This document shows positions 34,081 to 59,672 of a stretch of 64,000 nucleotides of DNA, one piece after another (position 1 is the stretch's first letter; each line of letters opens with the position of its first letter). The notes under the pieces are model-generated. The model was not told the origin of the DNA. It worked only from the letters and a program-made list of their open reading frames with translations, and did no database searches. The stretch is from Escallonia rubra (Eukaryota; Streptophyta; Magnoliopsida; Escalloniales; Escalloniaceae). A program made the position numbers and the translations under genes. The stretch covers positions 1-64,000 of the forward strand of contig JAVXUO010001346.1 in assembly GCA_033065855.1 (NCBI GenBank). Reading direction: 5' to 3'.

Positions 34081-34445
34081 GTGTTGTGTGTGTGTGCGGG
34101 CGTGCTCGCATGCGTAGGTCTAATTCCATCAGAGTTTGTTTGTGTGTGCGTGGGTCTGATTCAATTAGAGAGGGAGAGTGTGTGTGGGGGGGGGGGGTGA
34201 ATTCAATTAATGTACACGTGCGTATACACGCGCGTTTGTGTGTCAATGTGGGTGAATTCAATCAAAAAGAGAGTGTGTGTGTGTGTGTGTGTGTGTATGC
34301 CTGTGTGAATTCAATCGATGTGTGTGTACGCGTGTGCATGCTTGCCTCTGTGTGTGTGTGTGTGTATGCTTGTGTGAATTCAATCGATGTGTGTGTACGC
34401 GTGTGCATGCTTGCCTCTGCGTGTGCGTGCACCGCGCGTGTGCAC
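34081..34445. repeat. GT-rich minisatellite with a 69-bp unit
   Basis: Long GT runs alternate with GAATTCAATC/T phrases. A 69-bp unit starting GAATTCAATCGATGTGTG at 34307 is repeated almost exactly at 34376. Looser versions begin near 34199 and 34254. Alternating purine-pyrimidine steps dominate, which is compatible with Z-DNA. Open frames here are an artefact of the repeat. Confidence 0.9.
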
Positions 34446-57690: not shown

Positions 57691-58056
57691 AAACAAATGG
57701 ATCACTCAAGCTCACACTTTGTTGCACTCAAAATCATACACTCACTTATATGAGGAGGACATGGAGAGAACTTGAAGAGAACACATAATATACCTTAAAA
57801 ATTTATCTCATAGTTCTTCCTCTCATTTCACTTGCATCATCTTACACATTTTTATAGTACTTCTAAGTAACTACTAGACATGTAATAAATATACCACTAA
57901 CCCACTATTTCAACAATATAATAACCACTACTTCCACTAACACATAACAATAATGCACTTATAACTTATGCACCCACTAAGACATAACTTAATAACCCAT
58001 TAACATGTCACATTAATCACCACTCTAAAAAACTAAATCAAGTTTATTTTCCAACA
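57691..58056 (-). repeat. 3' LTR
   Basis: 366 bp, on the minus strand from TGTTGGAAAATAAACTTG to CATTTGTTT. It is identical to the other LTR except at three sites. Its outer end stops 6 nt short of the ACAACA terminus found in the 5' LTR. Confidence 0.93.
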
Positions 58057-58065
58057 CTCCCCTTT
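58057..58065 (-). other. Polypurine tract
   Basis: AAAGGGGAG on the minus strand lies directly before the TGTTGG start of the 3' LTR. The stop codon of the Gag-like ORF (TAA, 58066-58064) overlaps its edge. Confidence 0.85.
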
Positions 58066-59215
58066 AAACTTGATTTGTGTCTTCAATTATTCTTCTTGAT
58101 TGAGGGGCTTCATAAGTGCCAATATGGTATACATCTCCAATTCCATCAAGAGCAACAATCTTCTTCGCCATTTCTTTTGACGTGTATCGTATGTGGCACA
58201 TCTTTTTGTTGCACCTCTGGCATTTCTTCATCACTTGTGTGCATATTGGATCTTGACCATTTTCTCTGGACATTTCAAGTAACTCTTCCAGGTCAAAAAA
58301 CATCTCCATGTTTACCCAACCTGTGTCACTCAACAAATTCTCCATGCCAAGTTGAGGATAATAACTCGTTCGACTTTCAACAAAATCATTGTCCTTCCTA
58401 GTCATAAAAAACAACTCCCTAGGATGATTTTCAATGAAATAAGTTTTCAAAACATCAACCTTAGCTGCATATTCTTGTGGCACTATCACATCATTCTTAG
58501 CCATGAGAAAGTAATCATTACTCTCTTCTTCAAAATTTGAGAGGCTGTATAGTGGAAATGACCCAACCACATTTTCTTCTCTTAAAGAAACATCAAAGGT
58601 CATACCTGAGTTGTTCACGTTTTGACCTCCGTGAACTCTTACATCTTTGTCAATGCTCTCATCTTCAATCTCTTCATATTGAGCATTATCATCACCATCT
58701 GTGTTCTCGCTCTCCTCTACCTTTTCAACTGGCTCTTCTCCATTTGTCAACTTGTCGTTCTCACTGGCTTTAAAAGCCTTGAACTCTTGTTCAGCCTTTG
58801 TCTCCTCTATTTCTTTAGCTTCGGATGTGGGAAACTCATTTTCATCCTGCATTAGAGTTTCTTCCTCGAGATGTTCACCATCTTCATTCGTGAACTCATC
58901 TTCTTCCCAGCTTTGTACCCAATACTCCTTGGGTAAGAAGTCACGTCTACGGTTGGAAGCAATGACCTCGATCATTTGCCAAACATCACTTGGAGATCTT
59001 ACATCTCCAATGCACATCCATATCTCTGTATGGACGGCCTTATGCAATACTCGGAGTGCCTTTTCTTCCTTCTTTTGTCGAACTCCTTTTGACAAGCTAC
59101 CATGTGGTTCTTCACTGACCACATCCCACAAATCACATGATTTGAGATACAACGAAAGGACACTCCGCATTCTCACATAATTTGATAACAACAGTTTCTC
59201 ACAGCAAATATCCAT
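58064..59215 (-). CDS. Gag-like protein of the TR-GAG element, 383 aa
   Basis: The single uninterrupted ORF of the element. Residues about 8-95 resemble the Copia Gag (UBN2-type) capsid region: SNYVRMRSVLSLYLKSCDLW, then KALRVLHKAVHTEIWMCIGD and SPSDVWQMIEVI. Residues about 100-200 are very acidic and repetitive in Glu/Asp/Asn. The remaining part, to 383, has no family I recognise. Near its end CQRCNKKMCH forms a Cys/His cluster that is not a canonical CCHC knuckle. The protein would be expected to form particles that package the element's RNA, using another element's reverse transcriptase and integrase; that is inference. No stop or shift interrupts it, consistent with recent mobility. The reading ends at the polypurine tract, leaving no 3' non-coding internal sequence. 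Confidence 0.85.
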   Translation of the reverse strand: MDICCEKLLLSNYVRMRSVLSLYLKSCDLWDVVSEEPHGSLSKGVRQKKEEKALRVLHKAVHTEIWMCIGDVRSPSDVWQMIEVIASNRRRDFLPKEYWVQSWEEDEFTNEDGEHLEEETLMQDENEFPTSEAKEIEETKAEQEFKAFKASENDKLTNGEEPVEKVEESENTDGDDNAQYEEIEDESIDKDVRVHGGQNVNNSGMTFDVSLREENVVGSFPLYSLSNFEEESNDYFLMAKNDVIVPQEYAAKVDVLKTYFIENHPRELFFMTRKDNDFVESRTSYYPQLGMENLLSDTGWVNMEMFFDLEELLEMSRENGQDPICTQVMKKCQRCNKKMCHIRYTSKEMAKKIVALDGIGDVYHIGTYEAPQSRRIIEDTNQV

Positions 59216-59284
59216 TTCGGATACTTTTTTCTACAACCGTAGTGACTAAAACATTAATGCCACAACATCCACTAGGACCGTTGT

Positions 59285-59297
59285 GGCTTTGATACCA
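59285..59297 (-). other. Primer binding site (initiator tRNA-Met type)
   Basis: TGGTATCAAAGCC on the minus strand, 3 nt inside the 5' LTR. It differs at one position from the usual plant TGGTATCAGAGC site. Confidence 0.9.
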
Positions 59298-59300
59298 CTT

Positions 59301-59672
59301 TGTTGTAAACAAATGGATCACTCAAGCTCACACTTTGTTGCACTCAAAATCATACACTCACTTATATGAGGAGGACATGGAGAGAACTTGAAGAGAACAC
59401 ATAATATACCTTAAAAATTTATCTCATAGTTCTTCCTCTCCTTTCACTTGCATCATCTTACACATTTTTATAGTACTTCTAAGTAACTACTAGACATGTA
59501 ATAAATATACCACTAACCCACTATTTCAACAATATAATAGCCACTACTTCCACTAACACATAACAATAATGCACTTATAACTTATGCACCCACTAAGACA
59601 TAACTTAATAACCCACTAACATGTCACATTAATCACCACTCTAAAAAACTAAATCAAGTTTATTTTCCAACA
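59301..59672 (-). repeat. 5' LTR
   Basis: 372 bp with TGTTGG and ACAACA ends on the minus strand. It differs from the other LTR at three single bases and carries a full terminus. Confidence 0.95.
59464..59475 (-). promoter_or_regulatory. Putative TATA box in the 5' LTR
   Basis: The minus strand reads ACTATAAAAATG, about 205 bp from the start of the LTR. This is a plausible RNA polymerase II promoter for the element's transcript, by motif only. Confidence 0.5.

Follow-up and report, generated by a model that had tools for sequence, protein, structure and literature searches.

A Short, Partly Gag-like Retrotransposon Family of Escallonia rubra with a Candidate Copia Partner and Integrated Hybrids

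Introduction

How does a retrotransposon multiply when it carries a single, partly Gag-like ORF and no detectable pol domain? The question is raised by a 1,982-bp LTR retrotransposon on the minus strand (57691..59672) of the window, by which we mean the whole analysed stretch of 64,000 nucleotides from contig JAVXUO010001346.1 of Escallonia rubra. A preliminary description of this DNA had proposed a recently active, non-autonomous family mobilised by a Copia partner, and we have followed that proposal into the host genome. Taken as a whole, the reading of a non-autonomous element carried by the Copia family of one particular element, here called L057, appears likely to us.

Results

Anatomy of the Element

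The element consists of two LTRs, a primer site, a polypurine tract and one ORF, laid out as follows.

59301..59672, minus strand: 5' LTR, 372 bp, begins TGTTGG, ends TTTACAACA
59286..59297, minus strand: primer binding site TGGTATCAAAGC (family form TGGTATCAGAGC), presumably of initiator-Met type
59259..59287, minus strand: predicted hairpin GCCACAAC...GTTGTGGC, directly after the primer site
58064..59215, minus strand: ORF of 383 codons, stop counted in the coordinates; complete in 28 of the 40 copies fetched
58961..59152, minus strand: Gag-like part of the ORF, residues 22-85, from a Pfam PF14223 (Retrotran_gag_2) match below the curated cut-off and a profile comparison with the partner Gag
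58601..58930, minus strand: acidic part of the ORF, residues 96-205 (38 D+E, 9 K+R)
58067..58600, minus strand: fast-evolving C-terminal part of the ORF, residues 206-383
58057..58065, minus strand: polypurine tract AAAGGGGAG, adjoining the 3' LTR
57691..58056, minus strand: 3' LTR, 366 bp, without the last 6 bp (ACAACA) and with no visible target duplication

The near-identical LTRs, primer site, polypurine tract and single 383-codon ORF given in the preliminary description were all found again, and to these we add the minus-strand orientation, which it had lacked. The interior between the LTRs measures 1,244 bases, the ORF is the only long one and its stop codon overlaps the polypurine tract, and a Pfam search of the element returned no pol domain. 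The primer site starts 3 nt past the 5' LTR and carries one substitution relative to the form present in 37 of the 39 family copies where the site was found; we take it to be of the initiator-Met tRNA type. The 3' LTR is 6 bp short and no target duplication is visible at the ends of the window copy, so this copy has been trimmed at its 3' LTR end. The two LTRs differ at 3 of 366 aligned bases, which gives an age of about 0.3 to 1.6 million years if plant substitution rates are assumed to lie between 1.3e-8 and 2.5e-9 per site and year.

Across 39 distinct family sequences, the hairpin predicted after the primer site retains 402 of 465 pair cells; one pair is A-C in 17 of these 39, and two-sided changes are few. 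A hairpin is predicted at the same place in L057, with unrelated sequence. Elsewhere in the window, positions 34280-34429 hold a tandem repeat with a TG-rich unit of 69 bp (2.2 copies, 96% matches), which lies inside overlapping plus-strand frames.

A Young Family in the Host Genome

We searched the host assembly (566 Mb, 3,222 contigs) and obtained 479 candidates, the best 40 of which, the window copy among them, were scored. All 40 are 96-100% identical, and a chance origin of the element is therefore excluded. The 383-aa frame is intact in 28 of the 40 fetched copies; five have an alternative tail in common and a frame of 377 aa, and seven are shorter. Element length is under 2,000 bases in 39 of the 40 and 2,000 in one, the lengths of L039 and L040 being extrapolated. 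The family LTR is about 372 bp long, with TTTACAACA or CTCCAACA as its terminus in most copies. LTR pairs could be measured in 35 of the 40 copies (L030 was omitted, also from the whole-element alignment; L032, L037 and L040 were unparsed; L039 gave no valid comparison). The median difference between the 35 pairs is 2 in about 372 bp, and eight pairs are without substitution, one of these having a 1-base gap. As the copies nearest to the query were the ones measured, both figures lean towards young copies. A 5-bp target duplication is exact in 30 of the 36 testable copies among the 40 fetched, a count in which L002 and L028 were both entered although they represent one site. A young, non-autonomous family of many near-identical copies is supported.

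The site shared by L002 (G000:C230) and L028 (G000:C863) is one insertion site on two contigs, either allelic contigs or a duplication. The two copies differ at 26 of 1,988 bases and their flanks at 4 of 500 (about 99% alike). At G000:C1764:15600-18400 (L104), a relative of the window element forms a head-to-tail array, with units of 1,542 bp consisting of one LTR and the interior; the units show 99% identity across the 1,259 bases that were compared, and four N-terminal matches follow one another in a row.

A Candidate Copia Partner

The route to a partner led through a 790-aa frame related to the C-terminus of the ORF, which lies in a locus termed L051. Searching with the 5' part of L051 gave 50 matches at 40 loci (the best 40 of 264 candidates scored); six of these 40 partner-gag loci were fetched and the others were cross-matched by coordinates, by eye. 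The search for an autonomous Copia element with matching LTR and primer-site ends, which the preliminary description had called for, yielded a likely candidate, L057, a complete 4.9-kb Copia element with 100% identical LTRs of about 385 bp and the target duplication TTGAG. Its Pfam domains are gag, zinc knuckle, Pol_BBD, integrase and RVT_2, with the integrase placed before the reverse transcriptase. The L057 copy contains one stop; in a second partner copy, known from the search match alone, the pol match lies within an uninterrupted frame of 1,371 aa. The L057 primer site is TGGTATCAGAGC, identical to the family form of the window element. The LTRs of the two families are 69% alike overall and about 82-85% alike over the last 100 bp, and the bases just before the polypurine tract are common to both.

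Such shared ends are also what would be expected if the window element were a plain internal-deletion derivative of the L057 family and its ORF a leftover gag: LTR ends, primer site, polypurine tract and the short stretch preceding it all fit. Nevertheless, the ORF is about 22% identical to the partner Gag over 82 aa and the remainder has no match in the partner, and long open frames persist in copies of two diverged subfamilies. A simple deletion derivative, the outcome that the preliminary description had set against its own proposal, is accordingly not supported, and we regard it as very unlikely.

At G000:C2317:290800-298100 (L056), a diverged relative of the window element is separated by about 390 bp from a partner copy in the same orientation. 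From this locus we considered whether the ORF might belong to a larger element as an additional 3' gene, and ruled this out, the relative and the partner copy being separate neighbours. At G000:C2856:54423-68217, five Copia pol matches follow one another on one strand at intervals of about 3.0 kb, in what looks like a tandem array.

Hybrids of the Two Families

Four of the six fetched loci (L051, L058, L059 and L060) are hybrids of the two families. Each has LTR ends of the window-element type on both sides, followed inwards by the primer site and gag-pro of the partner and then by the 3' part of the window element; in L051, a Copia gag, protease region and integrase start run in frame into the C-terminal part of a window-type ORF. 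In the order given above, the switch points fall at about nt 851, 374, 375 and 483 of the window element, and the points on the partner side all differ. By eye, the sequence shared at the junction amounts to 8 nt in L051, 6 nt in L058 and 8 nt in L059, and is unclear in L060. The switch in L058 and L059 coincides with the primer site of the window element; if switches were evenly spread over the interior, the probability of two of four landing within 10 nt would be about 4 in 10,000 (post hoc arithmetic), and the 6-8 nt that both sequences have in common at the primer site may also have attracted the switches. Identity within the four LTR pairs of the hybrids is 99.5, 97.5, 91.5 and 85.6% over aligned parts, a range which suggests that the two families were paired repeatedly, at different times.

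The simplest account of these structures is template switching during reverse transcription. Minus-strand DNA would begin on RNA of the window element, take its LTR and copy its interior, after which the strand would move to the partner RNA, in two cases at the template end, i.e., the primer site. The hybrids could instead have arisen by DNA recombination between copies after insertion and would then say nothing about co-packaging. The absence of a target duplication at the ends of L051 fits such an origin, as does the closeness of a partner copy and a window-element relative, about 390 bp, in L056. Against it, L058 and L059 are flanked by exact 5-bp target duplications, window-element-type ends occur on the two LTRs of every hybrid, and two hybrids switch at the primer site. 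In L060 the duplication TGGAC is exact only if the first LTR base is taken to have changed, which slightly strengthens the case for DNA recombination. On balance we think this origin quite improbable, and the hybrids, read as products of template switching, support co-packaging and mobilisation in trans by the L057 family. For the Copia partner that the preliminary description had postulated there is thus an autonomous candidate, which resembles the family in its LTR ends and has its primer site, together with the hybrids. No hybrids of the opposite polarity were seen when 41 partner reverse-transcriptase matches were compared by eye with the N-terminal matches (40 and 150 candidates scored, respectively). 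The search for hybrids began from one hybrid, so other partners would have escaped it.

Exchange is also visible within the LTRs. In L053, L054 and the hybrid L058, the LTR is of the window-element type over its first 60 and last 100 bases, and its middle (U3) matches the partner at 92-93% and the window element at 65%. One lineage of the window family has taken up the partner U3, which could place that lineage under the partner promoter.

The Encoded Protein

The preliminary description spoke of a Gag-like ORF, and this applies only to its N-terminal quarter. Residues 22-85 match Pfam PF14223 with an E value of 1.7e-5, at 24.8 bits below the cut-off of 27, and no CCHC motif (zinc knuckle) is present in the 383-aa ORF. 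The Gag match is weaker in the relatives L052 (E 2e-4) and L053 (E 5e-4), and L054 gave none in Pfam at E 0.01. A profile built from seven ORF N-termini aligned with the partner Gag over 66 columns (E 2e-4, probability 47%, 27% identity); a PDB sequence search returned one weak match (E 0.16). On the best explanation, the protein would combine the N-terminal domain of a Copia Gag, truncated and diverged, with a rapidly changing acidic tail.

The two ends of the protein differ in conservation. In L052-L055, residues 1-91 are 84-95% identical to the window protein and the C-terminal 191 residues 52-65%; at the nucleotide level, similarity by segment is 88-99% in the leader and ORF start and 57-81% at nt 1073-1332, counted along the element. 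Between subfamilies, dS is 0.05-0.23 at the N-terminus and 0.36-0.89 at the C-terminus. This pattern is reversed within subfamilies (L053 with L054, L052 with L055), which indicates that exchange between lineages plays a part in it. An RNA signal may also contribute to the conserved leader and N-terminal sequence.

Selection on the ORF

Does the element need its protein? The ORF might be a passenger in an element carried, TRIM-like, by the RNA signals of LTR and leader alone, its frame open mainly from youth. Within the family, omega is 0.857 over the 28 full frames, and shared variants are near neutral: 38 silent and 84 changing codon variants occur in single copies, and 13 silent and 40 changing in several. 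Older changes therefore show no sign of stronger constraint, the shared variants not being poorer in amino-acid changes. Seven of the 40 copies have shorter frames and five the common changed tail, and silent sites of the leader and ORF start are conserved too. The N-terminal region points the other way. We fetched 40 of 150 N-terminal matches as additional pieces, and for residues 1-91 omega is 0.70 (p=0.008) in 51 copies without stops, compared with 1.08 and 1.01 in the shifted sense frames of these clean copies. The antisense frames gave 1.17, 1.19 and 0.74 (the last with p=0.024), and the frame control is imperfect in that one of the three is low as well. In 33 copies with stops omega is 0.76 (p=0.004), nearly equal to the value for copies without them, which again suits a passive ORF. 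Omega of internal and terminal branches did not differ significantly in a test that went from 90 rows to 88 (L002 and L028 being one site, and one row dropped for gaps) and to 84 without identical rows.

The diverged relatives bear on the same point. Frames of 366-380 codons are open in three of the four fetched diverged copies, and that of L055 is cut at 302 codons. In simulations of neutral decay, the chance of finding no stop was 0.00025 for L052, 0.00475 for L053 and 0.002 for L054, values that apply to copies chosen for their open frames and representing two subfamilies only. We conclude that constraint on the protein is probably present but weak. The dN/dS comparison suggested earlier thus gave omega of 0.86 for the family and 0.70 for the N-terminus, and a purely passive ORF is, in our estimate, somewhat unlikely.

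Discussion

The window element is best explained as a non-autonomous element living on a Copia partner of which L057 is an example. It would contribute an RNA bearing LTR ends, a primer site and a polypurine tract of its own; this RNA would be packaged together with partner RNA, and enzymes of the partner family would reverse transcribe and integrate it. The single protein most likely joins or decorates the partner particles. It is tempting to speculate further that the element is a capsid hitchhiker, in which the N-terminal domain of a Gag, lacking C-terminal and RNA-binding regions, would co-assemble with the partner Gag; the same RNA stretch, from the primer site to about codon 128, would be the packaging signal, with exchangeable tails behind it. 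This is a tentative idea and we would not expect it to hold in full, but if true, one conserved module would be both tag and ticket.

A text-based literature search, with most subscription papers outside its scope, brought up no published description that we recognised as this family. TR-GAG elements, reportedly the subject of Chaparro et al. in 2015, are the nearest starting point for comparison. In the accessible portions of the sources, such elements have two LTRs, one Gag-type ORF and no pol (PMC6022998, PMC8704663, PMC10025401, PMC5818461). One of them, AT5TE33540, encodes a GAG of 562 aa; it was mobile in ddm1 Arabidopsis, and it is similar to an ATCOPIA63 element that may be autonomous (PMC8704663). 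The window element likewise has paired LTRs, a primer site, a polypurine tract and no pol, and its single ORF is in part Gag-like. Mobilisation by an autonomous element, a further trait of the group, has the hybrids with the L057 family in its favour; the target duplication of TR-GAG elements is exact in 30 of 36 testable family copies, though absent from the window copy. It differs in length, 1.98 kb against TR-GAG quartiles of 3.6 to 8.1 kb in the part of PMC10025401 available, and its protein is Gag-like only N-terminally and has no zinc knuckle. With a Gag match of 24.8 bits against 27, limited to residues 22-85, we leave membership of the TR-GAG group open.

The centromeric wheat elements RLG_Quinta and RLG_Cereba offer a second parallel. 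As far as the accessible text of PMC11302176 goes, RLG_Quinta is non-autonomous, encodes a Gag with a domain of unknown function, has LTR ends, primer site and polypurine tract in common with its partner RLG_Cereba, and has undergone exchange between lineages. In contrast to the window element it is a centromeric Gypsy element whose Gag homology is very clear according to the authors, and its partner was deduced from shared motifs (PMC11302176), whereas that of the window element is indicated by integrated hybrids as well. RLG_Sabrina variants of wheat are also non-autonomous, with gag-pro swapped for other short genes, and two of them encode proteins structurally like capsid-forming proteins; unlike the window element, they are Gypsy elements of 6.6-8.3 kb (PMC9744471, in its accessible part). 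At 1,982 bases the window element falls under the TRIM size rule of less than 2,000 bases, as quoted from the available part of PMC6022998, but its 383-aa ORF with a weak Gag match departs from the TRIM feature of no coding domain; given the size rule, a program that missed this match would call the element a TRIM.

For the exchange itself, a 2010 paper represented here by its title points to LTR exchange between partners, as in the window family. Recombination during reverse transcription of packaged RNAs is described, in the portions available, for ONSEN, with one event within U3 (PMC5668417), and for template-switch complexes (PMC1950507). The ONSEN recombinants involve members of one family, whereas here two distinct families are joined, one of them non-autonomous; PMC1950507 deals with whole-element complexes, whereas here two switches lie at the primer site. 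From these partial sources, the window element appears to work like TR-GAG and RLG_Quinta elements: its kind is known, and it is a short Copia-linked variant of that kind. What sets it apart is an odd, truncated Gag-like protein and unusually direct helper evidence. Helper assignments for non-autonomous plant retrotransposons, in the literature compared and as far as its text was available, were based on common ends or on general resemblance. In the present case the integrated hybrids seem to preserve the identity of the two RNAs that came together in a single particle, and in two of these hybrids the point can be read at which the reverse transcriptase changed templates. With these two families it would be possible to test directly whether a Gag-like protein encoded by a non-autonomous element assists, marks or impedes the helper.
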